From positions 124,001 through 188,000 of the forward strand of contig NZ_JAGSYI010000003.1 of the NCBI RefSeq assembly GCF_025685625.1: a DNA stretch of 64,000 nt. Direction: 5' to 3'. A program made the translations under genes and the position numbers. Each line of letters starts with the position of its first letter. Within the stretch, counting starts at the first letter, position 1. This document shows, piece after piece, positions 23,934 to 37,080 of the stretch. The notes beneath the pieces were generated by a model, which was not told where the DNA came from, did no database searches, and saw only the letters and a program-made list of their open reading frames with translations. The DNA is from Acidicapsa acidisoli. Its GTDB lineage: Bacteria; Acidobacteriota; Terriglobia; Terriglobales; Acidobacteriaceae.

Positions 23934-23946
23934 GTGAGGGTTTGCC

Positions 23947-25050
23947 ATGAGCATCATCTTCGGGTTGCTGAAAGAACGGAATGAGACGGTCTCCGAATCG
24001 GAATTGCTGCGTGCCTCAGTTGTCACCGAATGCTACGCGACTGGCCCAGGTCACACGTATGTGAAAGGCCGGCTTGGCATGGGCTTGCAGCCCTACTTCA
24101 GCCATCAGCGCTCCGAATTTGAACTTCGGCCTCTTGCAGATAGTCATCGTCGGGTGGTCAGCTTCGATGGTCGCTTGGACAACTACAAAGAATTGATAAC
24201 CGAACTCGCTCTGTCCAATGCCGATCAACTCGATTCGCGGATTGTCCTTGCCGCATTCGACCGCTGGGGCGAAGAGTGCTTCTCCCGCCTCGTCGGTGAC
24301 TGGGCTTTAGCACTGTGGTCTGAAGGGGATCAATCGCTCTATCTTGCCAGGGATCACGCGGGAGCCAGAACGCTCTACGTTCGTCAGGAGCACGGAGCCC
24401 TACATTGGTCCACGCACCTCGATACCTTTGGAGCCTTCGGTACTGAACTGTGCCTCGCGGACGAGTATGTGGCCCGTTATCTCGCTTTCGTACCGATGCG
24501 TGAAGTGACTCCGTACAAGGGCGTATCGTCTGTACTTCCGGGGCACTATGCAACTTTTCGCAATGGAGCGATCTCATGCCGTGCTCATTGGAACGCGATC
24601 GTTCGAACCACGACTCGCCACAAAAGCGACGAGGAGTATGAAGCCCACTTTCTGTCCTTGTTCCAACAATCGGTTGAGCGGCGCACTGGACCTGGCGCAC
24701 CGATTCTCGCGCAACTGAGCGGCGGGATGGACTCAACATCGATCGTGTGCATGTCGTCCTCACGGAGCAAAACGCATGAGTTCAAGATCAATGCGCTTGT
24801 GAAGGCGCTCGCTGAATCCCACAGGCAGTTCAAAGACCCGATCGTCGGCAGTCAGGATGATGATGTTGCGCGTAGAGTCCAGTATCGCCGAGCAAATCTC
24901 ACAGTGGTCAAGGTGCTTTTGCACCGTGACACGTATCTCCTCGGGAAGCGCTCCGTCGATAAAATCAGAGATGTAGTTCCAAACATGCTTGCAGTCTATA
25001 ACCATGGGAGCAACCTCCTCTTCGGCGTTCGATTTACTGTCCTTAGCTGA
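23947..25050 (+). pseudogene. Lasso cyclase (asparagine-synthetase-like), C-terminally truncated
   Basis: The protein begins with an AsnB-like amidotransferase domain (MSIIFGLLKERNE; the catalytic Cys2 of true glutaminases is absent, as in many lasso cyclases). It then enters the ATP-pyrophosphatase domain at LSGGMDSTSIVCMS, the PP-loop. Homology stops there, at about 24755. The remaining frame to 25050 lies antisense to the anti-sigma gene and resembles nothing. A working cyclase is about 600 residues with the full synthetase domain, so ring closure cannot occur with this copy. The break joins the cluster to a convergent sigma/anti-sigma operon, implying a deletion or rearrangement. Confidence 0.85.
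24760..25005 (-). CDS. Zinc-finger anti-sigma factor (zf-HC2)
   Basis: This 81-residue protein has the anti-sigma zinc motif H-x3-C-x2-C (KHLDHCEICSAIL, about residues 30-42) and the upstream MVIDCKHVWNYISDFIDG. There is no transmembrane helix, so it acts in the cytoplasm, probably releasing its sigma partner when zinc thiols are oxidised or bound by metal. Its start overlaps the sigma gene by 10 bases. Its 3' end abuts the breakpoint of the truncated lasso cyclase, so a few C-terminal residues may have been lost. Confidence 0.8.
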   Translation of the reverse strand: MVIDCKHVWNYISDFIDGALPEEIRVTVQKHLDHCEICSAILDSTRNIIILTADDRVFELPVGFSERLHKRIDLELMRFAP

Positions 25051-25628
25051 GGGGCCAGTTGCTTTTGTAGTATCAAATGCGCTCGATGCAATCGGACCTT
25101 GACGCTCGGGATACTGATTTTCAGTGCTTCCGCCGCTTCGTTGATCGAGAGTTCCTCAACATCCCGCAGAAGGAAGACCTCCCGATAGATATCGGGAAGT
25201 CGGTCAACGGCCTGCTGAATCAACTTTCGGACCTCGTCCCGTTCAATGGCCTCGGAGGGTATTTCGTGCCAATCCCGTAACAAGGCGGGTGACAAGCCGT
25301 TGCCCTCGTCCGGCAATTGATCAAGAGACTCCATTCGAACCAAGACCTGCCGGCGCAAACGGGTTCTCGCTTCGTTGAGCGTGATGCTGATGAGCCACGT
25401 ACTGAACTTTGACTCGGCGCGAAATGAAGAAAGTTTCCGGAACGCTCTGACGATGGCTTCCTGCGCGACGTCTTCAGCATCCGTTTCGTTCTTCATATAC
25501 GACAGAGCCATGACGTAGACGCTACGTTCGTAGGGACGGATCAACTCGTGATAGAGCTGAATATCTCCCGCAAGAATAGCGGCTATCATTTCAGGTTCTG
25601 GGCGATTCATCACTTGAGGCACTTTCAC
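24996..25628 (-). CDS. ECF-family RNA polymerase sigma factor
   Basis: This 210-residue ECF sigma factor has region 2 (YHELIRPYERSVYVMALSYM, DAEDVAQEAIVRAFRKL, FSTWLISITLNEARTRLRR) and region 4 (LPDIYREVFLLRDVEELSIN, IPSVKVRLHRAHLILQ). Its gene is translationally coupled to DoxX upstream (4-base overlap) and to the zf-HC2 anti-sigma gene downstream. The start is GTG 25628, with ATG 25610 as alternative. Eight nearby promoter-like motifs TGTAAC-N17-KTCNNAY, including one in front of this operon and none seen elsewhere in the window, are the best candidates for its regulon. Caulobacter SigF, an ECF factor that controls bufferin genes, offers a precedent. Confidence 0.9.
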   Translation of the reverse strand: MKVPQVMNRPEPEMIAAILAGDIQLYHELIRPYERSVYVMALSYMKNETDAEDVAQEAIVRAFRKLSSFRAESKFSTWLISITLNEARTRLRRQVLVRMESLDQLPDEGNGLSPALLRDWHEIPSEAIERDEVRKLIQQAVDRLPDIYREVFLLRDVEELSINEAAEALKISIPSVKVRLHRAHLILQKQLAPQLRTVNRTPKRRLLPWL

Positions 25629-26092
25629 TGCTCAACAGCTTTCAGCCGTCTCGCAATGTATGTGTCGACGGCAAAGTAACCTGCCCCAAAGATCAGAACC
25701 ATCAGAGACGCAAACAGAAAGGTATAGGGATCAGCGACGTAAAATTTCCCCGGGTCTGAGAAGATCGCGGAGAGCGCCTCTCGGTCGGCGGTCCAATACG
25801 CCACGAACATATTGCATGCCAACAGAAGTGCTATCGGGCGCGAGCACAGGCCCAGGATTAAGAGGATACCGCCGACGAACTCCAGCATCGAGACACAAGG
25901 GGCTGCGATACCGGGAAGCGGAATATTAAGACTGGCGAAGAAGCCTGTAATTTTCGCAAGGTTATGTAATTTGCCCCATCCCGTCTGAGCGAACTGAAAT
26001 CCCCAGTAGAGACGAACGAGCAGGAGCATCGGGGATTGAAGGGACGAAAACGCCGATGCAAGACGGCGATACAGGACAAACAGAGGGCTCAT
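25625..26092 (-). CDS. DoxX-family membrane protein
   Basis: The protein is about 155 residues with four transmembrane helices and the DoxX signature: LLVRLYWGFQFAQTGWGKLH, then FVGGILLILGLCSRPIALLL and a C-terminal helix. DoxX proteins are found with thiol and metal stress systems and are frequent partners of bufferin loci. ATG 26092 is chosen because GAGGAA precedes it; an upstream in-frame start at 26131 has no ribosome site. It is the first gene of the DoxX-sigma-anti-sigma operon and overlaps the sigma gene by 4 bases. Confidence 0.88.
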   Translation of the reverse strand: MSPLFVLYRRLASAFSSLQSPMLLLVRLYWGFQFAQTGWGKLHNLAKITGFFASLNIPLPGIAAPCVSMLEFVGGILLILGLCSRPIALLLACNMFVAYWTADREALSAIFSDPGKFYVADPYTFLFASLMVLIFGAGYFAVDTYIARRLKAVEQ

Positions 26093-26144
26093 CGTTTCCT
26101 CGCGCATGGCTCGCTGACTGACTGCGGGCACATTGTTTTGCCTC

Positions 26145-26175
26145 GTTAGAAACGCGGAGGTGCGATTTGGTTACA
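26145..26175 (-). promoter_or_regulatory. ECF-type promoter of the DoxX-sigma operon
   Basis: On the minus strand, TGTAAC (26175-26170) is followed after 18 bases by TTCTAAC (26151-26145). It has the same -35 as seven other sites nearby and a matching -10, but one extra spacer base. It implies autoregulation of the sigma operon. Confidence 0.55.
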
Positions 26176-26196
26176 GGGGTCTTTTCGTGCGAACTG

Positions 26197-26226
26197 TGTA
26201 ACTGTTTCAACGCTCGCACGTCAGAT
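26197..26226 (+). promoter_or_regulatory. ECF-type promoter of the DUF1223 gene
   Basis: TGTAAC (26197-26202), 17 bases, GTCAGAT (26220-26226). It is identical in both boxes and in spacing to the sites at 31938 and 33571. It lies 27 bases before the DUF1223 start and is divergent from the sigma operon promoter. Confidence 0.7.
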
Positions 26227-26253
26227 GTTCACCGTCTGGCTGGAGGTACTCTC

Positions 26254-27033
26254 ATGCAGATCCGTTTCGTTTATGCAGTCTCGATTGCTCTCCTGGCTGC
26301 CCCATTAAAGCCGCATGCCGCTGCTCCTGATAGTTCGGGGAGCACAGCGCCTTCGTCTGTCGCAATCGTTGAGCTCTTTACTTCAGAGGGATGTTCGAGC
26401 TGTCCGCCAGCCGACTCACTGCTGCGGCAGATCAATTTGAAGCAGACAGATGCCGGGCAACTCATCATCGGTATCAGCGAGCATGTAACGTACTGGAACG
26501 ATCTCGGCTGGAAAGATCCGTACTCCTCGCCCACGTTTACGGAAAGGCAGAGCGCTTACGCGTCCCGCCTATCCTCTGAGGGTTCATACACGCCCCAGAT
26601 GGTTCTGAACGGTCGCGACCAGTTTGTCAGGAGCGATGGGTCTGCGCTTGAACGGGCCCTGCGCGACGACACTCGAAGAGAGCATGTGGCGCTCCACATC
26701 GTCTCCTCCACGAATAGTTCCGATGGAGTCGATGTGAGATTCTCAGTGGCCGGAAAGCCCTCAAAGCCATTCGAAATCATCGCCGTACTTGCTGACGATA
26801 CGGACCGCTCTAATGTCCTTCGCGGCGAAAACGGTGGAAGGCAACTCCAGCATGTCTCCGTCGCTCGCTCTCTGACGCGCGTGGCCACGCTTCGGGATGA
26901 CGGAGAGCAATCTGTGCACGTTTCTCTCCCGGGAGGGTTTGCGACGAACGGCTCCGCAGGCCATCACCTGATTCTCTTCGCCCAGGAGCCGCACCAGGGA
27001 GCAATCCTCGGAGCGGCCACCATGCCTCTTTGA
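26254..27033 (+). CDS. DUF1223 secreted thioredoxin-like protein
   Basis: This protein of about 259 residues has a signal peptide (MQIRFVYAVSIALLAAPLKP) and a DUF1223 thioredoxin-like domain with VELFTSEGCSSCPPADSLL, giving a CSSC redox motif near residue 49. GISEHVTYWNDLGWKDPYSS and YTPQMVLNGRDQFVRSD, other family blocks, are intact. It should act in the periplasm on thiols or metal-bound cysteines. The ATG at 26254 follows GGAGGT; the longer frame from 26167 would start inside its own promoter. It stands between the sigma operon and the bufferin operon and has a sigma-type promoter 27 bases upstream. Confidence 0.87.
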   Translation: MQIRFVYAVSIALLAAPLKPHAAAPDSSGSTAPSSVAIVELFTSEGCSSCPPADSLLRQINLKQTDAGQLIIGISEHVTYWNDLGWKDPYSSPTFTERQSAYASRLSSEGSYTPQMVLNGRDQFVRSDGSALERALRDDTRREHVALHIVSSTNSSDGVDVRFSVAGKPSKPFEIIAVLADDTDRSNVLRGENGGRQLQHVSVARSLTRVATLRDDGEQSVHVSLPGGFATNGSAGHHLILFAQEPHQGAILGAATMPL

Positions 27034-27049
27034 GAAAAGAGAGGCGCAA

Positions 27050-27079
27050 TGTAACTATCCTTCTCCTCGTGCTTCAAAC
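27050..27079 (+). promoter_or_regulatory. ECF-type promoter of the bufferin operon
   Basis: TGTAAC (27050-27055), 17 bases, TTCAAAC (27073-27079). Spacing and the -35 box match the other sites exactly and the -10 fits KTCNNAY. The leader to the precursor start would be about 110 bases. Confidence 0.55.
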
Positions 27080-27199
27080 TGGCGGATCGGTAGGGGCACT
27101 CACTGAGGTTCGAATGCACTCATCCGGGCCAATCGCTCCATTTCGTAACCCATTTTCTGTGGCATAGGGTCTATGCCCAACCGAAGAAAGGAACTCTTC

Positions 27200-27499
27200 A
27201 TGAAGAGCACCAACGTTAACAGCCTCGTCCTTGCGGCGGCCTTCGCCGGCCTTCTCGGCGGCACTTCCGCACGTCTCAACGCCCAGCCGGTCTCGGGTCA
27301 ATCCACAACCGCCGCAAGCTCCTCCGCCTTCGCAGGTGTCATGGTCGCAGCTGACCAGAAGGACCTGCCCAAGCACGCCTGCAAGGGCCAGAACGACTGC
27401 AAGGGCCAGGGCGGCGGCGACAAGAAGCATGCCGGCAAGAACGCCTGCAAGGGTCAGGGCGCCTGCGCCACCGACGGTTCCAAACCCCCTAAGAACTAA
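27200..27499 (+). CDS. bufA2: Bufferin-type precursor peptide (BufA2-like)
   Basis: This 99-residue secreted protein has a Sec-type signal (LVLAAAFAGLLGGTSARLNA). Its short mature part contains four cysteines (61, 67, 83, 89) arranged as two copies of ACKGQ-N/G-x-C in a Lys/Gly-rich context. This matches the BufA2 family of bufferins, periplasmic copper-binding RiPPs whose cysteines are converted by an MNIO enzyme. The maturase and its partner follow directly. The start at 27200 has AAAGGAA upstream. The gap to the maturase is 79 bases. It probably chelates copper in the periplasm under control of the nearby ECF factor. Confidence 0.82.
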   Translation: MKSTNVNSLVLAAAFAGLLGGTSARLNAQPVSGQSTTAASSSAFAGVMVAADQKDLPKHACKGQNDCKGQGGGDKKHAGKNACKGQGACATDGSKPPKN

Positions 27500-27578
27500 C
27501 CTCAACCGCGTGTAGGGGGTCCACTTTCTCAGGTGCCTCCTACACGGATTTCATGCTTCACTCAGCATCGGAGTACAT

Positions 27579-28463
27579 ATGCCTGCTAATCGTTTCAATG
27601 GGTACACCGACTACGGTATCGGCATCGGCTTGAGAGTTCCGCATTACGATCACATCCTCTCCAGGAAGCCGGTGGTCGATTGGTTTGAGATTATCTCGGA
27701 AAACTACATGGTGGACGACGGCCGTCCGCTGAGGATTCTCGATCAGATTCTCGACCAGTACCGCGTTGTGCAGCACGGTGTCTCCATGTACTTCGGAAGT
27801 GCGCAACCGCTGAACCGCGACCACCTGAAGCGGATCAAGGAACTGACGAAACGAACCAAGACGCCTTGGCTCTCTGATCACCTTTGCTGGGGCAGCGTTG
27901 ATGGCCGCTATACGCACGACCTGCTGCCTCTGCCGTACACATTCGAAGCCATCCGCATTACCGCCGAGCGCGTGCGTATGGTGCAGGACTATCTTGAAAT
28001 CCCCGTGGCTGTAGAGAATGTCAGCAGTTACGCGGAGTACCACGATTCGGAAATGACGGAGTGGGAGTTTCTGAACGAAGTGGTGCACGCAGCCGACTGT
28101 GGCATCCTGCTCGACGTGAATAACATTTACGTTTCTTCTCAAAATCACAACTTCGATCCGATGGACTACGTGAATAGCATCCCCGTCGAGCGCGTCGCTC
28201 AGATTCACCTTGCCGGCCACTCTAAGTTCGAGAAGTATACGCTCGACACACACGATCATCCTGTCCTTGATCCTGTATGGAGGCTGTACGCTCGTGCGAT
28301 CGAGCGGTGCGGACCCACCGCAACCCTTCTCGAATGGGACGACAATATTCCGTCGTTCGAAGAGGTCCACGGCGAAGCGCTCAAAGCGAACCGATTCCTG
28401 TCGGCCGCGGAGTTCGAGAACGTACCTGCAGAATTGCCCCTACTCGAGGAGGCACACGTATGA
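27579..28463 (+). CDS. bufB: MNIO-family bufferin maturase (DUF692)
   Basis: This 294-residue TIM-barrel protein of the multinuclear non-haem iron oxidase family has conserved blocks GIGLRVPHYDHIL, VDWFEIISENYM, VQHGVSMYFGSA, LSDHLCWG, VAVENVSSYAEY, ILLDVNNIYVSS and IHLAGHSKF. These supply the His/Asp/Glu ligands of the iron cluster. MNIO enzymes oxidise precursor cysteines to metal-binding heterocycles. It acts in the cytoplasm on the preceding peptide. Its stop overlaps the next gene by 4 bases (ATGA), so maturase and partner are made together. Confidence 0.92.
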   Translation: MPANRFNGYTDYGIGIGLRVPHYDHILSRKPVVDWFEIISENYMVDDGRPLRILDQILDQYRVVQHGVSMYFGSAQPLNRDHLKRIKELTKRTKTPWLSDHLCWGSVDGRYTHDLLPLPYTFEAIRITAERVRMVQDYLEIPVAVENVSSYAEYHDSEMTEWEFLNEVVHAADCGILLDVNNIYVSSQNHNFDPMDYVNSIPVERVAQIHLAGHSKFEKYTLDTHDHPVLDPVWRLYARAIERCGPTATLLEWDDNIPSFEEVHGEALKANRFLSAAEFENVPAELPLLEEAHV

Positions 28464-29365
28464 GGCTCCTTGAACTGCAACGCCGGATGGCTGAGGATGT
28501 GCGACGGCCTCTAACGGCCGACTTCCTGATGCAGGAGACCGCGGACGACGGTGCGTCGGTCAGTTCCATCGCCGCAAGCTATATCAGGCCCAATGACCGG
28601 CTGCCCTCATTTGAGCGTCTGGAGATCTACAATCGGCAATACTGGTTCCGCCTCATCAGCGCGGTATCCGAGGATTTCCCTACGCTCAACGCCCTTCTTG
28701 GCTCGCGCCGCTTCGAACAGCTGATCCTCGCCTACATAAATGAGAACCCATCGACATCCTGGACGCTCCGGGACCTGGGCGCGAAGTTGCCGCAATTTCT
28801 GGAGTCGCATCCAGAGTTCGCGGGGCGGCGTCATCGCCTCGCGGTAGAGGTCGCGAGGCTTGAGTGGGCGTACGTCGATGCATTCGACCGAAAACACCGC
28901 ACCCCACTGACGGCGGAAGAGGCGCAAAATATTAGACCGGACTCACGGCTGTCCCTTCAGCCGCATCTGCAGTTGCTTGAGTTGAGCTATCCGGTCGACA
29001 CCTTGGTGTTGGCGGTAAAGAAAGGCGCTCCGGAGGCGGAGATCGTGAGCAGCGCTGCCACTCGGCTCGAAGCGAAGACTAGTCTAAAGCTACCCTCGAT
29101 GAGACAGCAGCGGGTCTGGTTAGCGGTTCACCGTTATGAGGATTCCGTCTACTATCGGCGGCTTCGCCGCGAGGCTTTCCTGCTGCTGAGCTCTTTGCAC
29201 TCCGGTGCGACTGTGTCTGAGGCCGTCGGGCATGCCTTCGAGAAGGCGAAGCTGAATGTCGAGCAACAGGCAGAAGTTTTGCGCGAAAGTTTTGTTCACG
29301 CCTCCGAATTGGGATGGTTTTGCCTTCCTGAGGCAAAGGAAGATTCCAGGCTTCTTGTCATGTGA
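28460..29365 (+). CDS. bufC: BufC/HvfC-type partner protein (DUF2063)
   Basis: This 301-residue protein has the N-terminal DUF2063 putative DNA-binding domain (RLEIYNRQYWFRLISAVSED, FPTLNALLGSRRFEQLILAY) and a C-terminal winged-helix-like half (YRRLRREAFLLLSSLHSGAT). In bufferin and methanobactin-like systems this partner binds the MNIO enzyme and the precursor leader rather than DNA. The start is fixed by the ATGA overlap and GAGGAGG. Length matches the family. Confidence 0.85.
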   Translation: MRLLELQRRMAEDVRRPLTADFLMQETADDGASVSSIAASYIRPNDRLPSFERLEIYNRQYWFRLISAVSEDFPTLNALLGSRRFEQLILAYINENPSTSWTLRDLGAKLPQFLESHPEFAGRRHRLAVEVARLEWAYVDAFDRKHRTPLTAEEAQNIRPDSRLSLQPHLQLLELSYPVDTLVLAVKKGAPEAEIVSSAATRLEAKTSLKLPSMRQQRVWLAVHRYEDSVYYRRLRREAFLLLSSLHSGATVSEAVGHAFEKAKLNVEQQAEVLRESFVHASELGWFCLPEAKEDSRLLVM

Positions 29366-29385
29366 TCCAAGCGAGGGAATGGGTG

Positions 29386-29829
29386 ATGAGTAATGAGCGA
29401 GATCAATGGTTGAAGAGCATAGGAATGTCCTATGCTCTTTTGCGTATCGCGTTGGGTTTGAACATCTGCCTACATGGCTTCGTTCGTTGGACGGTAGGAC
29501 TTAGGAGCTTTGCTGATTCGCTGTTGCCGATGTTTCAGAAGACCCCTCTACCCGGATGGTCCGTCTACACCTTCGGCTATGTGCTGCCGATTGTCGAGAC
29601 TCTGGTGGGCGCCTCGATGCTCTTTGGCTTCCAAACCCGACGCGCTTTGATCTCAGGGTCGGTTCTCATGCTTGTCTTGACGTTCGGTTCGACCCTGCGG
29701 CAAGACTGGCCCGCTGTCGGAATACAACTCACGTATTCCTGGGTTTATTCTTTTTTGCCGGCGGGGATTCGATTTGATTCCTACGGCATAGATCAGATGT
29801 TGGGGTCATCAACCCGAGGAGAGACATAA
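29386..29829 (+). CDS. DoxX-family membrane protein of the bufferin operon
   Basis: This 147-residue protein has four hydrophobic segments: SYALLRIALGLNICLHGFVR, YVLPIVETLVGASMLFG, ALISGSVLMLVLTFGSTL and a last one ending WVYSFLPAG. It fits the DoxX family, which often closes bufferin operons. It begins 20 bases after bufC with GAGGG upstream. A longer GTG start at 29362 would overlap bufC. It is a second DoxX in the locus and is not a close copy of the one at 25625. Confidence 0.8.
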   Translation: MSNERDQWLKSIGMSYALLRIALGLNICLHGFVRWTVGLRSFADSLLPMFQKTPLPGWSVYTFGYVLPIVETLVGASMLFGFQTRRALISGSVLMLVLTFGSTLRQDWPAVGIQLTYSWVYSFLPAGIRFDSYGIDQMLGSSTRGET

Positions 29830-30248
29830 CGATTCCCACGAGGGCAATGGATAAGTACCGAGCTTGACAGGCTGAGCAGTCCAAATAGGGATCAGTGTGC
29901 CTCATGGTCGCGCTTGACCTTGACAAGCATATAACTTGTGCCTTCACTCTTCCAGAACATCAACGGTTCATATTGGGCTGCAGTCGCTAAGTACTGCCTG
30001 CTATCAATGCTCCATTCTATCTTCCGTTATCCATTCGCTTATCAGCGTCACGAGCCAATTCAATTCAATCGTACCGCTCTACGATGGGGGGCAAGTGCAA
30101 CACGAAAAATCAATGTAGCGCCGTGTTGCTGCGCAGACCACTTTGTAGACCAATTGACACGTGAACAGTTATTAACCGAAGTCATATATATCTACTTCAC
30201 CCAGTACTGATCAACAGCAGATTAAATGTAAATATAGTTGCTATGTCA

Positions 30249-30278
30249 TGTAACTAAATGTGGGCCGAATATTCCTAT
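30249..30278 (+). promoter_or_regulatory. ECF-type promoter of the 30352 secreted protein gene
   Basis: TGTAAC (30249-30254), 17 bases, TTCCTAT (30272-30278). It sits about 75 bases before the start at 30352. Apart from this, 29830-30351 has nothing I can support. Confidence 0.5.
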
Positions 30279-30351
30279 GGGCACACGGCCAGGTGTAGAG
30301 GTACTTACTCGACATCTCGCCGTGTATCCCCTAAGAAAAAGGAGTCCGACC

Positions 30352-31761
30352 ATGGTTACTGCATTTCGCGGGTCCTCCCCTTGTGGAAGTGACCTTGATG
30401 TGATCGCTCTGCGCTCACGCATCTATTCCTCGACGAAGCTCTTCATTCTGGCCAGCGCCACGATGATGAGTAGCCTTTTACCTTCAACCCTCTTTGCGCA
30501 GAATGTTGTTGTGACGAGGCCGCCGGTGTCTCCGGAGGCGATGGCCCTGCATGTCCTCGCAAAGCGTCCTGTTGCAAAGTTGCCAAGGACGATAGACCTG
30601 GCTGAGAGTTCGTCCGGGTTCAACTCGGCACAAGGGTTCGGAGCCTTAGCGCGCGATCTGGGGCAGCCCGGGTGCGACCTGTTTCCTGCGCCTGCGAATA
30701 TCGGCACGAATGTAGGCCTTTCGTACTTCGGTCCCCCGCCTTCCACAGTCAACCAGAGCCTAGTCGGTCCCGTGCAGTTGCTCAACACCGGACAAGTCGA
30801 CGCCACTGCCGGCACGATTACCATTCCTCTGTATAAGGGAACGGTCAAGAGCACCGGCAAGACGGCCTGGTACATCCTCACCGATGTTTCTGATCCGGGG
30901 ATTGCCGCGGAGCTAGGCCTGAACTTCTCGGCTAAGATGAATAACATCACCGCCGCCGCCAGGACCGGTAACTTGGGTCCCGATGGAAACATCATATTCG
31001 ACAAGGGCACTGTCAATTTCGCTCCGAATCGGAATATTGTTCCCGGGCCGGAAGGTGACGAGTTTCCCCCCAAGTCTTTTACGCCCGGCGAAGTCGGGGA
31101 TGCGAACTACAGCCCCTACGTCCGAATCGCCAATGGCGGAGGCGTGGTCTACAACGCACCGATGATAGCCTACAATGTCGATGCAAGCCAGATTAACTTC
31201 CCTAACGGCAACGTCGACTATACCAAGGTTCATGACGCGGTCCAGGCGATCGATCCAATCGGCATGACCGTCACCTTGGCACTCGTCAACGGCTTCAGCT
31301 TCGGCCGCCCGGTGTGGTACATCTCGATGGACGCCAGTATCCCCCTTGCGGCCGCGATCGAGCACAACACGTACGCTCCACTGATGGGTAAGCTTCTGCT
31401 GGGCAATGACGACAGCGCCGGCAGCCCGATCGAGCGCATCTTCATCGCCACCAATGGCCAGGAAGGTTGCGATAATCCTCAGCGTCAAGGGCTGTCCGCC
31501 GACCTGAACGACGGACACCGGCCGAACAACACTCTGGGCGGCATTCCCACCCTCGCGCTGGACTACAGCCCCGCATGGGACGCAAACCTGTACACCTGGA
31601 CCGACGACGCCATTAACAAGGGTTATCGCCAGCAGCTTCGCGAAGAGTTCCAGATCCTCACCTACGCGGCAGACGGCCTGATCATGGGAGCGTCGCAAAC
31701 GGCACCGTTCGGCAGTGCTGGTTTCTCCATCAATTGCCCGATCGTCCAAAGACTAGATTGA
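30352..31761 (+). CDS. Secreted protein of unknown function
   Basis: This 469-residue protein has an N-terminal signal region (LFILASATMMSSLLPSTLFA, about residues 23-50). The mature part has two similar halves, each with a GP/NG-x-V-PL-K-type strand followed by WYI(L/S)-D-x-S/A-D-P-x-IA-x-E. The WYILTDVSDPGIAAELGLNF and WYISMDASIPLAAAIEHN segments align with each other. I do not recognise the family. ATG 30352 is chosen for AAGGAG upstream and the signal peptide. It carries one of the shared sigma-type promoters and a strong terminator downstream, so it is a monocistronic member of the presumed regulon. Confidence 0.65.
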   Translation: MVTAFRGSSPCGSDLDVIALRSRIYSSTKLFILASATMMSSLLPSTLFAQNVVVTRPPVSPEAMALHVLAKRPVAKLPRTIDLAESSSGFNSAQGFGALARDLGQPGCDLFPAPANIGTNVGLSYFGPPPSTVNQSLVGPVQLLNTGQVDATAGTITIPLYKGTVKSTGKTAWYILTDVSDPGIAAELGLNFSAKMNNITAAARTGNLGPDGNIIFDKGTVNFAPNRNIVPGPEGDEFPPKSFTPGEVGDANYSPYVRIANGGGVVYNAPMIAYNVDASQINFPNGNVDYTKVHDAVQAIDPIGMTVTLALVNGFSFGRPVWYISMDASIPLAAAIEHNTYAPLMGKLLLGNDDSAGSPIERIFIATNGQEGCDNPQRQGLSADLNDGHRPNNTLGGIPTLALDYSPAWDANLYTWTDDAINKGYRQQLREEFQILTYAADGLIMGASQTAPFGSAGFSINCPIVQRLD

Positions 31762-31775
31762 TCAAAGGACTTCTT

Positions 31776-31830
31776 CAGGGATTGTTCAAGCCTGACTTCG
31801 TGACGCTTGAACAATCCCTGCTTTTCTTTC
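31776..31830 (+). terminator. Intrinsic terminator with perfect 16-base stem
   Basis: CAGGGATTGTTCAAGC (31776-31791) pairs perfectly with GCTTGAACAATCCCTG (31805-31820) across a 13-base loop, followed by CTTTTCTTTC. It is placed 14 bases after the stop of the secreted-protein gene. Confidence 0.8.
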
Positions 31831-31896
31831 AACGGTCCATCTGACACAAGCTCTTTATCCTTTAAGCTCTTCGATTAGCGCCCACACTTTAACCTG

Positions 31897-31934
31897 CCCT
31901 GCTTTTATTCGCCACAAGGCGAATAAAAGCAGGG
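31897..31934. terminator. Perfect 17-base stem-loop before the peroxiredoxin promoter
   Basis: CCCTGCTTTTATTCGCC and its exact complement flank an ACAA loop. It sits directly upstream (4 bases) of the sigma-type promoter at 31938. It may be a second terminator insulating that promoter, or a target-site-like repeat. Confidence 0.5.
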
Positions 31935-31937
31935 CGC

Positions 31938-31967
31938 TGTAACTTTTTCCGAACCGGCTTGTCAGAT
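31938..31967 (+). promoter_or_regulatory. ECF-type promoter of the peroxiredoxin gene
   Basis: TGTAAC (31938-31943), 17 bases, GTCAGAT (31961-31967), 28 bases before the start codon. Both boxes are identical to those at 26197 and 33571. Confidence 0.7.
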
Positions 31968-31995
31968 TGGCATTCTACAAGAGGAGTGCCTCGTC

Positions 31996-32607
31996 ATGTC
32001 CGCTTTCACCCTTTCATCCAGTAGAGCCCAGAAGGCCGCCGGACTTCGCCTGAATCAAGCGTGGAGCGTGCTCCTCGCCATTACCTGTGCGTTGCTTTTG
32101 GGAAGATCCGTGCTTGCCGAGACTCCGGCGGTAGGTGCTAAGGCAGCCGATTTTACTCTGTTGACGCCTACCGGGAAGTCCGTAACGCTTTCCGCCGAGC
32201 GGGGAGGGCACCTTCTTGTGCTTGTCATCTTGCGCGGTTTCCCCGGCTATCAGTGCCCCTACTGCGTTAAGCAGGTTCACGATTTCGTCGAGCGTGCGTC
32301 AGACTTCAAAGCAAAGAACACGCGGGTGCTTCTGGTGTACCCTGGACCGCCGGCCGACCTCGATCAACACGCAAAGGAATTCCTCGAGAAGCAGGCTGAG
32401 TTGCCTTCTAACGTTGTTCTTGTCACTGACCCTGACTATAAGGTCACCAACCTGTACGGGCTGCGCTGGGATGCACCGCACGAGACAGCGTATCCATCTA
32501 CCTTCATTCTCGATGGAAGTGGCACCGTGGTGTTCGAGAAGGTCACTCACAGCCACGGCGATCGCCTGTCAGCACTGGATGCACTCGATCACCTTTCCAC
32601 AAACTAA
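31996..32607 (+). CDS. Exported AhpC/TSA-type peroxiredoxin-like protein
   Basis: This 203-residue protein has a signal or anchor helix (WSVLLAITCALLLGRSVLA) and a thioredoxin-fold AhpC/TSA domain. The active site reads GFPGYQCPYCVKQVHDF, a CPYC motif at about residues 93-96 where peroxiredoxins have a single peroxidatic Cys followed by Thr/Pro. The remaining strands (TRVLLVYPGPPADL, YPSTFILDGSGTVVFEKV) are standard. It probably reduces peroxide or disulfides in the periplasm. It starts 28 bases after a sigma-type promoter and ends just before a GC-rich hairpin at 32616-32640. Confidence 0.83.
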   Translation: MSAFTLSSSRAQKAAGLRLNQAWSVLLAITCALLLGRSVLAETPAVGAKAADFTLLTPTGKSVTLSAERGGHLLVLVILRGFPGYQCPYCVKQVHDFVERASDFKAKNTRVLLVYPGPPADLDQHAKEFLEKQAELPSNVVLVTDPDYKVTNLYGLRWDAPHETAYPSTFILDGSGTVVFEKVTHSHGDRLSALDALDHLSTN

Positions 32608-32615
32608 CGTGGGGG

Positions 32616-32640
32616 CTGCGCCGAGAAGTTTCCGGCGCAG
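32616..32640 (+). terminator. GC-rich stem-loop after the peroxiredoxin gene
   Basis: CTGCGCCG and CGGCGCAG form an 8-base stem with a 9-base loop, 9 bases after the stop codon. No strong T-tract follows. Confidence 0.45.
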
Positions 32641-32667
32641 GCTTTCCTCAACCGTCGCGGGTCGAAC

Positions 32668-33128
32668 ATGCAAAACCTTATCAAACGACTCTTGTTCCTC
32701 CTCCTCCCTGTCTTCATTGCACTTCCTTTCTTTTGCCAGCTCAGTTGCGTGAAGTGGGCACGGGTGCACCGGGCCCCGTCAAAGCCCCGCATCTCACCGC
32801 GGAACTGATCTCCGATTCCGGGACTATCAATCCTGGGGGGCTGGCTCCCTGGAAGACATGTGACTTTCTCGTCAGTCTCTGGAAGGAGTTCGATGCGGGT
32901 GAGTCTTACGAGGCCTGCTTCGCGAAAGCTATCGATCGCAGCATGCCCGTTCTGCTGAATCTCAACAATAACGGTGGAAGCTGGGGCGAGAACGGCGTCA
33001 GCTATGAGCGCGTAGTCAAGCGAGTGCAGCCGGAGATCGAGGGAGGGTGTCCTGAGCTCTGGGAATATCTGACACCTCAGCTGGAAGCGGGACGTCACAA
33101 AGGTTCCTTCGCAGCGTCCGCGTTGTAG
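32668..33128 (+). pseudogene. DsbD-like N-terminal remnant joined to unknown sequence
   Basis: An ATG at 32668 opens a signal peptide (IKRLLFLLLPVFIALPF). After about 25 codons the sensible frame shifts by one, continuing as VKAPHLTAELISDSGTINPG, the start of the DsbD N-terminal domain. After about 20 more residues the sequence changes to an unrecognised stretch (PWKTCDFLVSLWKEFDAG to the stop at 33128). The conserved DsbD core, membrane domain and thioredoxin end are missing. It looks like a frameshifted and internally deleted thiol-disulfide interchange gene. Confidence 0.5.
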
Positions 33129-33161
33129 TAAGGAGGCTTGCCTATGAATGGGTTAAGGCTA

Positions 33162-33467
33162 TTATTCCTTGAACAGATGTGAGGCGTGCGTGATGGCGCC
33201 GCCGGCACGCATCGCGGCAGCAATGATCGCCGCTTCAACGAGCATTGCGTCGGTCGCACCTTCTGTACGAGCAGACTGAACGTGCAACTCGACACAGTAT
33301 GGACACTGCGTCGTCAGAGCCACAGAGACCGCGATGAGTTGCTTATGGATGACGTCGATCGCGCCGGGCGCAAACGTCGCCTTGTCGAACACCCAAAACG
33401 CCTTCATGGCGTCAGGAGCGTTCTCATCAAGGCGCTTCAGTTTCGTGAGATTTGAGCTGTTATACAT
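33162..33467 (-). CDS. AhpD-like carboxymuconolactone decarboxylase protein
   Basis: This 101-residue alpha-helical protein carries the AhpD-type redox motif in LTTQCPYCVELHVQSA: Cys-x-x-Cys with the downstream His. Such proteins reduce peroxiredoxins or act as alkylhydroperoxidases. The start at 33467 follows GGAGAGA; the longer frame to 33524 has no ribosome site. Upstream on the same strand is one of the three identical sigma-type promoters, so it should be induced together with the peroxiredoxin next door. Confidence 0.87.
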   Translation of the reverse strand: MYNSSNLTKLKRLDENAPDAMKAFWVFDKATFAPGAIDVIHKQLIAVSVALTTQCPYCVELHVQSARTEGATDAMLVEAAIIAAAMRAGGAITHASHLFKE

Positions 33468-33541
33468 TGCTCTCTCCGGAAGAATTGGAAGCATTCGAGT
33501 CAGATCGCCAGCTTGCGACAACAAGTGAATCTTCGTTGAAA

Positions 33542-33571
33542 ATCTGACGAGCCAGCTGGCCCGAAGTTACA
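33542..33571 (-). promoter_or_regulatory. ECF-type promoter of the AhpD-like gene
   Basis: On the minus strand TGTAAC (33571-33566), 17 bases, GTCAGAT (33548-33542). Both boxes are identical to those at 26197 and 31938. The leader would be about 70 bases. Confidence 0.7.
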
Positions 33572-33740
33572 GCTAAGGGAAGCCGTTCAGAGACAACCTC
33601 CCTCAGCCTGCGCGAACGTGTGAATTGAGTGGTGCCAGCATCTCAGCCCGGAGAACACCTATTGGAAAATCCGTGTCGCGCGACACGGCTCACAGAAGAC
33701 CGTCCTGGTGCTGGCCTGTGACACTCAGAGTGCTCTGAGG

Positions 33741-34037
33741 TTAGAGCTTTTCGACAACGATATCCACGGTCTTAATCTCGGGGTGAGTAATGAACAGTTC
33801 GTCAGCCTTCGCGAAGAGCGCCTTGGCAATCTCCCCGTTGACGTGCGCATTCCTTCCGGCTTCATCCTGAAACGTATCGAATATCCCGAACGTCGCGGGG
33901 CCGATCCTGAAGGCGAACCACGCTGTCGTCCCTGTTTCCGCCTCGACAAGCGGGCCTGCAGAGCGCAGAAATTCTTCTACCTCAGCTTCCTTACCGGGGC
34001 GAGCCTGCAATGTTGCTAGTATTCCGACTTGGTTCAC
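33741..34037 (-). CDS. YgiN-like antibiotic-biosynthesis monooxygenase-type protein
   Basis: This 98-residue ferredoxin-like ABM-fold protein begins VNQVGILATLQARPGKEAEV, then FLRSAGPLVEAETGTTAWF and FGIFDTFQDEAGRNAHVNGE. The GTG start is chosen because AAGGAGA precedes it at good spacing and the domain begins at once. Family members include quinol monooxygenases and stress proteins; the substrate here is unknown. A sigma-type promoter lies about 120 bases upstream. Confidence 0.85.
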   Translation of the reverse strand: MNQVGILATLQARPGKEAEVEEFLRSAGPLVEAETGTTAWFAFRIGPATFGIFDTFQDEAGRNAHVNGEIAKALFAKADELFITHPEIKTVDIVVEKL

Positions 34038-34157
34038 GCAATTTCTCCTTAATGGGTTGTGCGAATAGACTTTTTGATTCCAGTGGTGCTCGAGTGAATG
34101 GCGACCCGTCTGCCGAGTTGAGCACAGAGAGGCCCTCCCCCACAAACGAGGCTGAAC

Positions 34158-34187
34158 ATTAGAAGCAGACACGGGAAGAAAGTTACG
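34158..34187 (-). promoter_or_regulatory. ECF-type promoter of the YgiN-like gene
   Basis: On the minus strand CGTAAC (34187-34182), 17 bases, TTCTAAT (34164-34158). It has one mismatch in the -35 relative to the other sites. Leader about 115 bases. Confidence 0.45.
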
Positions 34188-34290
34188 CTAACGTCGAGTG
34201 AACAAGTTCGGTTCTGGGGGCGGCCATATTCCCTTCACTGATACGCGGCTGGGAGCGCTGATGTGATCACTTCATCCTCAAGGGAGATCG

Positions 34291-34377
34291 CTAGAAACGG
34301 ATCAGCAATCCTCCGGTGAACGCAACGTTGTTCTGAAGACCGCCGCGAGTGTCTACTCCGTAGTGACCGACCTGCAG
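34291..34377 (-). pseudogene. Outer-membrane beta-barrel C-terminal remnant
   Basis: The minus strand ends in GGLQNNVAFTGGLLIRF followed by a stop. This is the terminal strand of a small acidobacterial outer-membrane porin, with the required final Phe. Upstream homology stops near 34377, where it meets, tail outward, the fragment of another outer-membrane protein on the other strand. Confidence 0.45.
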
Positions 34378-34539
34378 TTCACAGCTCAGTCCTTCAACGT
34401 GAGCAACACGCCCAGCTACATCATTCCTCTGGGCAGTGGAAACGCACAGCTTGGAAACGCCGCCTTCGGAACGGTCACCAACTACGATCCGAATTACAAC
34501 CCTCGTCAGTATCAATTCGCTCTGAAGTTTCAGTTCTGA
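34378..34539 (+). pseudogene. TonB-dependent (Oar-like) receptor C-terminal remnant
   Basis: The plus strand reads FNVSNTPSYIIPLGSGNAQL, then FGTVTNYDPNYNPRQYQFAL and ends KFQF-stop. This is the last-strand region of acidobacterial carboxypeptidase-regulatory TonB receptors. Nothing upstream belongs to the gene, so only 53 codons of about 1000 survive. 34540-34837 shows no gene. Confidence 0.6.
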
Positions 34540-34837
34540 TATCTCAGGCCAGACTGCAACGCAAAGGGTATGCCGCTGCAGCTCTTCCTTTTTGGGGGAG
34601 GAGTTGTAGCGGCATGGATTCGTGTACTGAAGTGCGCGTACACGCGACCGGCGTGCCTGGATTGATTCGTGCTCTGGTCTTCTCCTAGTCGATTGTCGGC
34701 AGGCAAGGCTTTGAATCGCCTCACAAGATCAGTGGCCAAGAGCGGAATTTAATTAGACTCCGCATATATTGCAAATGAAAGCGCCCCACTGCAAAAGAAT
34801 TATTCATTTTTCGCAGTAGAACTTTTTCACCGATCGT

Positions 34838-34867
34838 TGTAACCTTCACCGACTCCGCCATTCATAC
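34838..34867 (+). promoter_or_regulatory. ECF-type promoter of the beta-propeller gene
   Basis: TGTAAC (34838-34843), 17 bases, TTCATAC (34861-34867), about 100 bases before the start at 34968. Confidence 0.55.
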
Positions 34868-34967
34868 AACCGCGCAACCTTAGGGTCATCTTGTGCATTG
34901 CTGATTCATCAATGCATGGAGGCTCCTGCGCAAAAGGGGTCTTACCCCCCAAAGAGGAGTAAGCAGC

Positions 34968-36095
34968 ATGATGAAGTCGATTCCTGGTCTTTTGGCCGTC
35001 ACGCTTTGTATCGGAGCATCCGCATCGCCTGTGCTCGCACAAGCCGGCGGAGGCAACACATCCGTTTTCGTTATGACGAACGATAAGGTCAAAAACGAAG
35101 TCCTGACCTATCAGCGCGGTTACGATGGACAGTTTGTCCTGAGAGAGCGCGCTGCAACCGGCGGCCGTGGCAGCGGCGGCGAAACCGATCCTCTTCAGTC
35201 TCAAGGCTCGCTGACCATCAGTGGAGATCACACTCTCTTGTTTGCTGTGAACTCGGCAAGCGGGTCAGTCTCAAGCTTCCACATTCTCAACGGCATTCCG
35301 GTTCTGGTCGACAAAGAACCTTCCGAGGGCGCCTTTCCCGTCGCAGTGACGGAGCACAACGGCACGGTTTACGTCCTGAACGCAGGCGGAAGTGGTGCGA
35401 TTGTTGCATTCAAGGCAGATGGCTTCGGACGGCTCCACGAAATTCAGAACTCATCTGCTTTCCTCACTGGCACGAACTCCGGCGCTTCATCCATCTCGGT
35501 GAGCCCGAACGGCAAGTGGTTGATCGTGATAGAGAAGGCTTCGAACAGCATCGATGTGTTCCCGATCCTTGTGGATGGCACATTAGGCACTGTTGTTGCC
35601 AACAAGAGCGTCACTGCAGGAGTATTCGCAACGGTGTTTACTCCTGGTGGTCAACTCATCGTTTCCGAGAATCAGCCAAACAGCGGAACTGACACATCCT
35701 CGATTTCCTCGTATACGATCAACGCCAACGGCACGCTCACTGCGATCACCCAAAGCATTCCAACTTTTGGCAACGGCAACTGCTGGAATGCCATTACTCC
35801 CAACGCAAAATGGGTATTTGTCGATAACTCTGCCACATCCTCGGTGGCAGGATTCTCGATTAGCTCGGCTGGCGCGTTGAGCCCCATTGCCAACACTGTC
35901 GTTAGCACCCTTCCTGAAGGCTCGACCAACCTCGACATGGCTATCAGCGCTGATGGAAAGTACCTGTTCAACGTACTGTCCGGCGCCGGCGAAATTGGTG
36001 TGTTTTCCATCAATGCCAACGGCACCGTCAACCAACTCGGCAGCATCGAGGGTCTTCCCAATACTGTCGGTTTCAACGGCATCGCTGCTCTCTAA
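34968..36095 (+). CDS. Secreted beta-propeller (lactonase-like) protein
   Basis: This 375-residue protein has a clear signal peptide (LLAVTLCIGASASPVLA) and a seven-bladed propeller of the YncE/6-phosphogluconolactonase type. Repeated blades include HTLLFAVNSASGSVSSFHIL, GTVYVLNAGGSGAIVAFKAD, KWLIVIEKASNSIDVFPIL and KYLFNVLSGAGEIGVFSINA. Substrate and catalytic residues cannot be assigned. ATG 34968 (or 34971) follows GAGGAG. It carries a sigma-type promoter and is closed by a hairpin, making it the last member of the presumed regulon. Confidence 0.8.
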   Translation: MMKSIPGLLAVTLCIGASASPVLAQAGGGNTSVFVMTNDKVKNEVLTYQRGYDGQFVLRERAATGGRGSGGETDPLQSQGSLTISGDHTLLFAVNSASGSVSSFHILNGIPVLVDKEPSEGAFPVAVTEHNGTVYVLNAGGSGAIVAFKADGFGRLHEIQNSSAFLTGTNSGASSISVSPNGKWLIVIEKASNSIDVFPILVDGTLGTVVANKSVTAGVFATVFTPGGQLIVSENQPNSGTDTSSISSYTINANGTLTAITQSIPTFGNGNCWNAITPNAKWVFVDNSATSSVAGFSISSAGALSPIANTVVSTLPEGSTNLDMAISADGKYLFNVLSGAGEIGVFSINANGTVNQLGSIEGLPNTVGFNGIAAL

Positions 36096-36110
36096 CCCAA
36101 ACAAAACGAT

Positions 36111-36143
36111 CGCCCGCGCCAATGAGTGATCCAGGCGCGGGCG
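36111..36143 (+). terminator. GC-rich hairpin after the beta-propeller gene
   Basis: CGCCCGCGCC and GGCGCGGGCG form a perfect 10-base stem with a 13-base loop, 15 bases after the stop codon. No T-tract follows. It may serve both converging transcripts. Confidence 0.55.
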
Positions 36144-36166
36144 ACACAATCTCTCCAATTGGCAGC

Positions 36167-37080
36167 TCATCGGGATTGTTGGGGCTGCGATGGCCTTGAC
36201 GTGATGGCTCGCCGGAGCTGCGCAAGCGGCGCATCATCATCGAAGTCAATTCCGTTCGGCCTGGGTCGAACGCCCAATTCTTCCCAGAGTTGATCTAAAT
36301 CCACACTCACTGGCATGTCTTTCCATCGCTGGTACAAGTCACTCAGCACGGTGGTCCCAGTGGCTTGGTCTCCTATGTGAAGAATGGGAGGCAGTGCGGA
36401 TTCGGTATTGATCGTAGCCCTTGCCGCAACGATGGCACGAAGGGCATCCTGTAGCCCCTTGCGATTCTCAGTCGCTCGCCGGATCTCCACATCCGCGACC
36501 AAACAGAACATCGCGCCTCCCCAATACGTGCGGCCCCAGGTGTGGATCCGGTCGATTCCTCGATCGGCTCGTTGAGGCTCTCCCTGGGGCATTCCCGAAA
36601 CCATGTCTTTCCATACTTTTTTGCAGGTAGTTGGCCATCCTGGGCTCTTGCGATTGGCTCAACGTAGGTTGCAATACCCTCCTCAAGTCAATGGTGCTCG
36701 TCGGCGAGTGAAGCGATTCCCATGTGCACCAGTTCATGGGTCATGGTCCAATCGGCCTCAAGATCAGTTTCCGATACCGCCGCCCCAAGGGGCATCCTCG
36801 AGACACCTTGAAAACCGTCAATATCGCCCCAGGTGGTCCCATGGATCGACTCATCATCGTCCTCGCTCTGAGTAACACTCACCCGGGTGCGTCGAACCGG
36901 AAATCGTCCATAGTACACGGCGACCGACTCAGCTGCTCGACGCACCCATTGAAGGACATCGTCCGCTTGGAGGGACGACGGCTGAAGCTGGATGTCGACC
37001 TCGATATCAGATTGCCCGATCTTCAGGAAATATCGAGGGCTTTGGAGCTGCTGTCGTCCGGCGGCGATGGGGTGAGACGA
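36167..37080 (-). pseudogene. Gluzincin-type zinc metallopeptidase, inactivated
   Basis: The minus strand encodes SPRYFLKIGQSDIEVDIQ, then VAVYYGRFPVRRTRVSVT and the zinc motif HELVH in WTMTHELVHMGIASLADEHH. A TGA follows where Trp is expected. The same frame goes on with LEEGIATYVEPIAR, which holds the third zinc-ligand Glu. A one-base loss in an A-run then shifts the frame to the C-terminal part (KGLQDALRAIVAA to GTTVLSDLYQRWKD and the stop at 36167). Two independent lesions show it is dead. The N-terminal part before about 37080 was not recognised. Confidence 0.68.

Follow-up and report, generated by a model that had tools for sequence, protein, structure and literature searches.

A two-box motif around a bufferin locus of Acidicapsa acidisoli very probably marks the promoters of an ECF sigma regulon that recurs in Acidobacteriota

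In a 64-kb stretch of the Acidicapsa acidisoli genome (contig NZ_JAGSYI010000003.1, positions 124,001 to 188,000; hereafter the window), a bufferin locus lies beside genes for a sigma factor and an anti-sigma factor, and a pair of short sequence boxes is repeated ahead of its genes, which raises the question of whether a single sigma factor governs the whole neighborhood. We consider that the eight pairs of boxes are very probably promoters of one extracytoplasmic function (ECF) sigma regulon, with the neighboring sigma and zinc-type anti-sigma factors as its switch (Table 1). A sigma regulon is supported because the motif recurs before the same genes in relatives, prefers a specific spacer, and co-occurs with one sigma clade. 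When the entire window was scanned for TGTAAC-N16-18-KTCNNAY, seven exact copies were found, all of them within 8.7 kb (26145-34867), as against a shuffle expectation of 0.22 copies on average and a maximum of 1 in 100 shuffles. As the first-pass annotation of this DNA had proposed, no further copy lies elsewhere in the 64 kb, three copies are identical in both boxes (TGTAAC and GTCAGAT), the spacer is 17 bases in seven sites and 18 in one, and the sites are placed upstream of, and oriented toward, the first gene of each presumed transcription unit. The same annotation had all eight promoters sharing TGTAAC, which is true of the seven exact sites, but the eighth (34158-34187, minus strand) reads CGTAAC. 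Sigma-70 promoters were considered and rejected: a scan of 24700-36200 with the sigma-70 consensus gave 4 sites versus 5.5 expected in shuffles, and none of these overlaps the eight motif sites.

To follow the motif in relatives (genomes and loci are given below by our own G and L handles), we used a profile of 24 anti-sigma sequences, which found 128 relatives in GTDB genomes, and took the best 80 of these 128 as loci (1.14 Mb). Of these, 79 of 80 have titles that name Acidobacteria or genera assigned to that group (Edaphobacter, Granulicella, Terriglobus, Acidipila, Bryocella, and others), while the title of the remaining one, a Rhodanobacteraceae metagenome-assembled genome, is perhaps a binning error. 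In these 80 loci, there are 115 motif sites and 6 for the reversed pattern. Eight of the loci have an anti-sigma gene that was already in hand; the other 72, which may partly be close kin of earlier loci, hold 102 sites versus 6 reversed, with at least one site in 50 of the 72, and so the recurrence in related Acidobacteriota that the first-pass annotation proposed to look for is present. Moreover, when spacers from 7 to 30 bases were scanned in the 72 loci, a length of 17 was found 85 times and 18 was found 15 times, with every other length found 0-5 times.

As for what the motif precedes, 94 of the 115 sites fall between 60 bases inside and 350 bases before a homolog of a query gene. These targets are DoxX (24), bufA2 (23), DUF1223 (14), sigma (11), peroxiredoxin (8), cytochrome b (4), beta-propeller (4), YgiN-like (3), DUF7482 (2), and thioredoxin-like (1), where the cytochrome b and thioredoxin-like queries are genes of relatives picked because the motif precedes them, and each query makes up one of its own rows; for the last 21 sites, no target was scored. 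At 22 of the 24 DoxX sites, the gene that comes next on that strand is a sigma gene; together with the 11 sites directly before sigma, this makes about 33 that would be autoregulatory. Counted per gene (taking for each locus the best homolog that has 200 bases or more upstream of it, and an exact site within 350 bases before the gene), a site was found for 14 of 18 DUF1223, 6 of 10 peroxiredoxin, 4 of 5 propeller, 3 of 5 YgiN-like, 2 of 2 DUF7482, and 0 of 1 AhpD-like homologs. This supports the earlier suggestion that two secreted proteins with no known link to bufferins, the DUF7482 protein and the beta-propeller, are members of the regulon, and DUF7482 homologs with an upstream site are found in G072 (L052), G119 (L115), L249, and L253. 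Support in relatives is thinnest for the AhpD-like and YgiN-like sites, and there is no site before the AhpD-like homolog in L083.

The closest view of the individual sites is given by G119, which has a near copy of the cluster (L115, L144), and by G039. In G119, motifs stand before doxX (L115 14442, with a spacer of 17 where the window has 18), DUF1223, bufA2, and peroxiredoxin genes at the same places as in the window, and before DUF7482 and propeller (L144 7838) genes; the DUF1223 site is in the same place in G039 as well. The AhpD-like site of G119 has one mismatch (TGTAAC-N18-GTCAGAG); no motif site was found there before the YgiN-like gene, and the YgiN-like site of G039 is exact (TGTAAC-N17-TTCTAAC). 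In seven equal-length comparisons of the window with G119 or G039, 84 of 91 box positions are identical, versus 67 of 119 in the spacers and 190 of 350 in the ungapped flanks, a contrast biased in favor of the boxes, as the sites were found by them, and one from which the first DoxX site was excluded because its spacer length differs. In the G119 copy, only the bufB start and the later part of bufC remain (L115 15865-16456), with the promoters kept, and another operon with its genes in place occurs in the same genome (L065).

From the 94 distinct sites with a 17-base spacer, we derived the consensus yTGTAACYwTT-N13-cTCtaAY, in which the letters that the search pattern fixes are necessarily invariant. 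Its informative free positions are the C or T before TGTAAC, the Y-w-T-T after it, the C (0.57) or, less often, G (0.26) ahead of TC, and the A (0.65) before the fixed A. The leading K first proposed for the second box was too strict, as CTC is the commonest form in the 115 sites of relatives (62), followed by GTC (32), TTC (14), and ATC (7). Over the 94 placed sites, for which the script required the same strand, the start codon follows box 2 at a median of 46 nt.

We also approached the motif from the bufferin genes. BufB matches occur in 45 of 120 family genomes, some being distant MNIO matches or fragments, and 34 loci were analyzed, namely, 33 with a close bufB together with the second copy of A. 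acidisoli itself, leaving out the distant matches and the fragments in G104 and G089. A bufA2 homolog is present in 33 of these 34 loci, L083 being the one without. Here, with no word preselected, TGTAAC is the commonest 6-mer in the 300 bases before bufA2, where it is found in 23 of the 33 regions, while the top count for any 6-mer in 50 single-base shuffles was 13. In the same regions, TGTAACCT is found in 15 of 33, versus no more than 4 in shuffles. Sigma factors were assigned by a 49-row tree, in which 31 rows form a clade with 98/91 support. With a shuffle rate of 1% per region, TGTAAC-N17-19-TC stands before bufA2 in 19 of the 21 loci from genomes with the sigma clade versus 3 of the 12 others (Fisher p 2.5e-4, this p-value and those that follow treating related genomes as independent). 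The density of TGTAACY-N17,18-TCNNAY was compared in 50 family genomes, 28 with a clade sigma and 22 with no sigma match at E 1e-45, with genomes whose match falls elsewhere in the tree than the clade, and all other unmatched genomes, left out. The motif has a density of 1.76/Mb in 27 sigma-positive genomes (A. acidisoli excluded) and 1.02/Mb in the 22 sigma-negative ones, while the reversed control has 1.92/Mb and 2.01/Mb, respectively (Fisher p 2e-4 against control; Mann-Whitney p 0.002). As counts, these are 222 motif and 242 reversed hits in the sigma-positive genomes and 91 versus 180, or about half, in the sigma-negative ones, and the difference comes to a handful of sites in each genome, a size that fits a small regulon.

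A similar comparison was made for MsrP, which was found in 30 of 34 genomes searched and, with one locus dropped for being cut short, was used in 29; TGTAAC-N17-19-TC is upstream of it in 14 of 18 sigma-positive versus 4 of 11 sigma-negative genomes (p 0.048). Moreover, three genomes with no bufB match have the motif ahead of related genes. In G063, these are an MsrP-like oxidoreductase (79 bits, MsrP cut-off 207) and a methionine-rich MxKDx-like peptide (L242 10567-10869; TIGR02953 E 1.4e-7, 31.3 bits, cut-off 41); in G115, they are MsrA (171 bits, cut-off 108) and, by eye, an MsrP-like protein; and in G101, a b-type cytochrome and, by eye, a propeller. The G063 peptide gene is near the MsrP-like gene and a sigma gene, and its product resembles the methionine-rich peptide of ECF16 systems.

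In A. acidisoli itself, the regulon would extend beyond the locus, as MsrP, a second bufferin operon, another DoxX gene, and two more propellers bear the motif (Table 1). Besides the window pattern, the variant TGTAAC-N18,19-TCNNAY was searched in this genome (24 hits, reversed 34), and the two patterns together gave 22 distinct hits outside the cluster (12, and 10 more). Nine of the 22 precede a plausible gene, including one for an MBL-fold protein and, by eye, those for a FecR-like and another secreted protein, and the remaining 13 are within genes or unplaced. The sites before the second bufA2 and MsrP have 18-base spacers. A crude gene caller placed 7 of the 12 non-cluster sites of the window pattern in coding sequence versus 20 of 24 reversed hits, a weak control in that 2 of the 7 cluster sites were also called coding.

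Turning to the presumed switch, all 24 aligned sequences (from 30 homologs and that of the window) share the anti-sigma residues C5, H31, C35, and C38, which form a ligand pattern of an N-terminal Cys and His-x3-Cys-x2-Cys with 26/4/3 spacing. Its Pfam match is zf-HC2 only, and no membrane helix or long hydrophobic stretch was seen by eye. Residues 4-72 align with the RsrA model TIGR03988 (E 1.9e-7), although with 31 of 62.5 bits the RsrA cut-off is missed. Against solved structures, a search with the single sequence turned up nothing relevant to E 1 and the profile found RsiW (E 0.0014), and so RsrA-like structures were rejected as a match. The nearest solved proteins to the sigma factor are SigW, an unnamed sigma (8z6g), a sigma-H factor (6in7), and sigma-E. 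In the window, the doxX-sigma-anti-sigma operon is separate from bufA2-bufB-bufC and on the opposite strand, and in G035, G066, G119 (L065), G034, G047, and G070, the order bufA2-bufB-bufC-doxX-sigma-anti-sigma is found on one strand. The ligand spacing is the same as printed for neisserial MseR (Cys4, His30, Cys34, and Cys37; PMC2893595) and for RsrA (11, 37, 41, and 44; PMC4960319). For RsrA, oxidative release is reported to need the zinc-bound N-terminal Cys (PMC4960319), and by analogy oxidation is a plausible signal for the anti-sigma factor here.

Several observations weigh against the interpretation as a sigma regulon under this switch. MseR, with the same ligands, is reported as unresponsive to peroxide, diamide, and singlet oxygen (PMC2893595), and thus redox sensing should not be assumed from the ligands. 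The motif before bufA2 is missing in the sigma-positive G072 and G034 and present in three genomes without the clade, G081, G020, and G067, two of which are incomplete assemblies (G081, 84%; G020, 76%), the link with MsrP is weaker than that with bufA2, and the p-values assume an independence that related genomes lack. Among the 80 loci, an exact site was found before just 23 of 40 bufA2, 24 of 50 DoxX, 11 of 79 sigma, and 0 of 4 MsrP homologs, and 24 loci have none. Furthermore, the motif total in the A. acidisoli genome (7.11 Mb) does not exceed the reversed control (19 versus 24 hits). The first-pass annotation had held that background frequency across the genome would speak against the regulon, and, read literally, this is the frequency found; yet 7 of the 19 hits are inside the 8.7-kb cluster, whereas the rate of the other 12 predicts about 0.015 there. 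This excess is a local one, for which reason we do not take the genome-wide count as a refutation.

A final point on the same side is that A. acidisoli has a second clade-member sigma/anti-sigma pair (C2:58042), 52% and 63% identical to that of the window, so that each site may be controlled by either pair. The window pair had been regarded as the obvious controller, and its sigma family is indeed supported by the recurrence, spacer, and clade co-occurrence, but it need not be the sole one. In fact, it is a serious possibility, if one we lean against, that the sites are real ECF promoters of which some or all are also read by the paralogous pair, making two overlapping controllers; this overlaps with our own interpretation, and the likelihoods of the two are not complementary. 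The paralogous sigma groups in the tree with sigmas found near bufA2 in G102, G083, and G002, and the 18-base spacers at the second bufA2 and MsrP of A. acidisoli are like those at bufA2 in G102 and G083. Spacer length, however, does not split cleanly by sigma type (17 in G002, 18 in G117 and G035), and in G119 the window cluster, with 17-base spacers in 7 of 8 sites, is copied together with a window-type sigma. In Edaphobacter aggregans DSM 19364, four anti-sigma-family loci (L249, L254, L261, and L315) are among the best 80 of the 128, and therefore paralogous pairs do occur.

It is very unlikely that the boxes are instead the operator of a DNA-binding regulator. While conserved boxes of 6 and 7 bases might in principle be half-sites, here they are unlike each other, not inverted, and separated by a spacer fixed at 17 or 18; each of the 94 placed sites is oriented toward its gene, with the median distance given above, and the motif follows a sigma clade. 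On spacing, orientation, and this clade link, we rejected a repressor or activator operator. Chance, or local duplication of one upstream region, can hardly explain the cluster: although three sites are identical in both boxes, the spacers and flanks differ among the eight, and sites recur before several different genes in most of the 72 further loci.

Among described systems, that of the window resembles neisserial sigma-E/MseR in layout, as likened by gene order, ligands, and promoter, and not by sigma sequence. In both this system (PMC2893595) and Haemophilus RpoE2/HrsE (PMC7907618), the sigma gene is followed by that of a small zinc-motif anti-sigma factor, as is the case here. The neisserial sigma operon also includes DoxX (PMC2893595), Haemophilus RpoE2 controls a separate cluster of DoxX, UPF0276 (MNIO), and DUF2063 genes like those of the window (PMC7907618), and a methionine sulfoxide reductase belongs to the neisserial/Haemophilus regulon, just as MsrP bears the motif here (PMC2893595, PMC7907618). 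Moreover, the printed neisserial promoter, GTMAGBWTT-N12-13-CGTCTAAH (PMC2893595), is near in layout to GTAACYWTT, 12 (or 13) bases, and NNTCtaAY. In contrast to these systems as there described, the -35 is GTAAC and not GTMAG, a BufA2-like precursor is present, the phylum is another one, and there are more separate promoters (DUF1223, peroxiredoxin, YgiN-like, propeller, and DUF7482).

The -35 core is instead shared with the ECF16-type systems SigF/NrsF, EcfF/OsrA, and BcrS/AbcS and with RpoE7 of Sinorhizobium meliloti, for which the sections of the papers used here do not state an ECF group (PMC3511200, PMC3420878, PMC8315932, PMC6180224). The Caulobacter promoter is given as GTAACC-N16-CGAA and that of the group as tGTAACc-N16-CGAA (PMC3511200, PMC3420878), with N17 in PMC8315932, and in the S. 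meliloti pSymB record we found TGTAAC-N16-GCGAAT before the DUF2282-DUF692 genes. Kinds of target are also shared with these alphaproteobacterial regulons, in that bufferin operons, DoxX, and YedY/MsrP or another methionine sulfoxide reductase are described (PMC3511200, PMC3420878, PMC8315932, PMC6180224), and ECF16 factors control such genes against hypochlorite, metals, or peroxide (PMC3511200, PMC3420878, PMC8315932). While the -10 described for ECF16 is CGAA and the anti-sigma a six-helix membrane DUF1109/NrsF protein, here they are TCnnAY (the search pattern itself, first taken from the window sites) and an 81-residue zf-HC2 protein. With the window sigma also just 26% identical to the pSymB sigma beside DUF692 (one pair compared), ECF16 membership was rejected, and only the -35 (t)GTAAC fits. 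SigR of Streptomyces has GGAAT-GTT promoters and other targets, unlike the sigma factor here. Its RsrA, though, is described as a soluble single-domain CHCC zinc anti-sigma factor (PMC4960319), as that of the window would be.

In a published survey of MNIO clusters, sigma genes are reported for those of Buf1 and not for those of Buf2 (PMC12452194), and the word start "acidobacter" is absent from the main text. Unlike what that text reports, BufA2-like operons adjoin sigma/anti-sigma pairs in many of the genomes here, although the precursor in the window scores under the BufA2 cut-off, and our results would qualify the survey on this point. Among the matches listed, no open-licence PubMed Central paper describes this Acidobacteriota regulon in its title or the start of its abstract.

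Taken as a mechanism, the sigma factor, perhaps with its paralog, would be held by the small CHCC zinc-type anti-sigma factor until the cysteines of the latter are oxidized or its zinc is replaced, much as in RsrA. The freed sigma, together with RNA polymerase, would then read TGTAACYwTT as the -35 and cTCtaAY as the -10, activating its own operon through the DoxX promoter. The remaining targets would be mostly envelope proteins, that is, the bufferin and its maturase, DoxX, DUF1223, peroxiredoxin, AhpD-like and YgiN-like proteins, DUF7482, and beta-propellers, as well as MsrP outside the window. The likely purpose, judged from these gene families, is periplasmic copper buffering and the repair of thiol and methionine oxidation. 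While the boxes, their 17/18 spacing, their orientation, and their recurrence in relatives along with a sigma clade are read from the DNA itself, metal/thiol stress, as earlier predicted, is something that we infer, and with MsrP, MsrA, and MxKDx-type targets occurring here and in relatives, methionine or thiol oxidation is no less likely than metal to be the signal.

We further suggest, but tentatively and at somewhat short of even confidence, that in Acidobacteriota a non-ECF16 sigma under a cytoplasmic thiol-zinc sensor took over or kept the TGTAAC -35 and the envelope program of alphaproteobacterial ECF16 (bufferins, DoxX, MsrP/MsrA, a methionine-rich MxKDx-like peptide, and a b-type cytochrome), with beta-propellers, DUF1223, and DUF7482 added. 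Bufferins would there be part of a response to methionine and thiol damage, perhaps by reactive chlorine, beyond copper buffering. That two dissimilar kinds of sigma factor would use one -35 box for similar genes is an evolutionary question that is now testable. Acidobacteriota is a phylum with few experimental systems, for which the analysis offers a promoter code and a member list of a probable stress regulon. Secreted families of unknown role (DUF7482, DUF1223, and the lactonase-like propellers) are thereby placed in a putative pathway with bufferins and methionine sulfoxide repair.

Table 1. Predicted promoters and genes of the bufferin locus (window positions), and motif-bearing genes elsewhere in the A. 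acidisoli genome (contig handle and position)
Feature	Position	Strand	Details
Promoter 1 (predicted)	26145..26175	-	TGTAAC-N18-TTCTAAC, exact; ahead of doxX-sigma-anti-sigma operon
Promoter 2 (predicted)	26197..26226	+	TGTAAC-N17-GTCAGAT, exact; ahead of DUF1223 gene
Promoter 3 (predicted)	27050..27079	+	TGTAAC-N17-TTCAAAC, exact; ahead of bufA2-bufB-bufC-doxX
Promoter 4 (predicted)	30249..30278	+	TGTAAC-N17-TTCCTAT, exact; ahead of DUF7482 gene, presumed secreted
Promoter 5 (predicted)	31938..31967	+	TGTAAC-N17-GTCAGAT, exact; ahead of peroxiredoxin gene
Promoter 6 (predicted)	33542..33571	-	TGTAAC-N17-GTCAGAT, exact; ahead of AhpD-like (CMD) gene
Promoter 7 (predicted)	34158..34187	-	CGTAAC-N17-TTCTAAT, one box 1 mismatch; ahead of YgiN-like (ABM) gene
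Promoter 8 (predicted)	34838..34867	+	TGTAAC-N17-TTCATAC, exact; ahead of beta-propeller gene
Anti-sigma factor, CHCC zinc-binding (ZAS) type, 81 aa	24760..25005	-	zf-HC2 PF13490 E 1.1e-9
ECF-type sigma factor, 210 aa	24996..25628	-	Sigma70_r2 E 7.6e-17, Sigma70_r4_2 E 1.7e-15
DoxX protein, first gene of sigma operon	25625..26131	-	PF07681 E 2.6e-20
DUF1223 protein, presumed secreted	26254..27033	+	PF06764 E 1.1e-55
Bufferin-type precursor (BufA2-like)	27200..27499	+	Position before bufB; NF050166 E 3.5e-4, 20.7 bits (cut-off 60)
BufB MNIO maturase	27579..28463	+	NF050167 354 bits (passes family cut-off of 310)
BufC-like DUF2063 partner protein	28460..29365	+	PF09836 E 3.9e-17
DoxX protein behind bufC	29386..29829	+	PF07681 E 3.9e-6
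DUF7482 protein, presumed secreted	30352..31761	+	PF24298 E 1.4e-10
Peroxiredoxin (AhpC/TSA), presumed secreted	31996..32607	+	PF00578 E 2.1e-20
AhpD-like carboxymuconolactone decarboxylase family protein	33162..33524	-	PF02627 E 9.5e-18
YgiN-like monooxygenase-fold protein (ABM)	33741..34040	-	PF03992 E 0.0016, below cut-off (scan from upstream start 34172)
Lactonase-like beta-propeller, presumed secreted	34968..36095	+	PF10282 E 1.2e-17
MsrP, motif upstream	C5:83306		NCBIfam MsrP 458 bits, cut-off 207
bufA2 of second bufferin operon (L050), motif upstream	C2:429582		
Further DoxX protein, motif upstream	C2:1366428 (L008)		
Two lactonase-like propellers, motif upstream	C1:1987356 and C7:55998		
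MsrB, motif upstream, less sure	C1:849762		Frame begins 15 nt after site

Some further observations concern the surroundings of these genes. Three relatives have an additional motif that is directed away from the DUF7482 gene (L115 17316-17345, minus strand; L253 908; L249 713), and the window has no exact site at this position. A small RNA or peptide behind the outward motif was considered and rejected, as alignment and a search for open reading frames in L115, L253, and L249 gave no conserved reading frame. Elsewhere in the A. acidisoli genome, the motif-bearing DoxX gene of L008 is divergent from a frame that by eye resembles a chromate transporter. Within the window, PqqD-like, kinase-like, transglutaminase-like, and asparagine-synthase-like frames at 21833-25050 look by eye like a cluster of the lasso-peptide type, only the last frame having been scanned. 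This asparagine-synthase-like frame covers just the start of its domain (2-52 of 354), overlaps the 3' end of the anti-sigma gene, and looks shortened. Likewise, between the peroxiredoxin and AhpD-like genes, a frame at 32733-33128 has only the end of an HD domain (PF13023, 101-165 of 165) and is probably a gene remnant.

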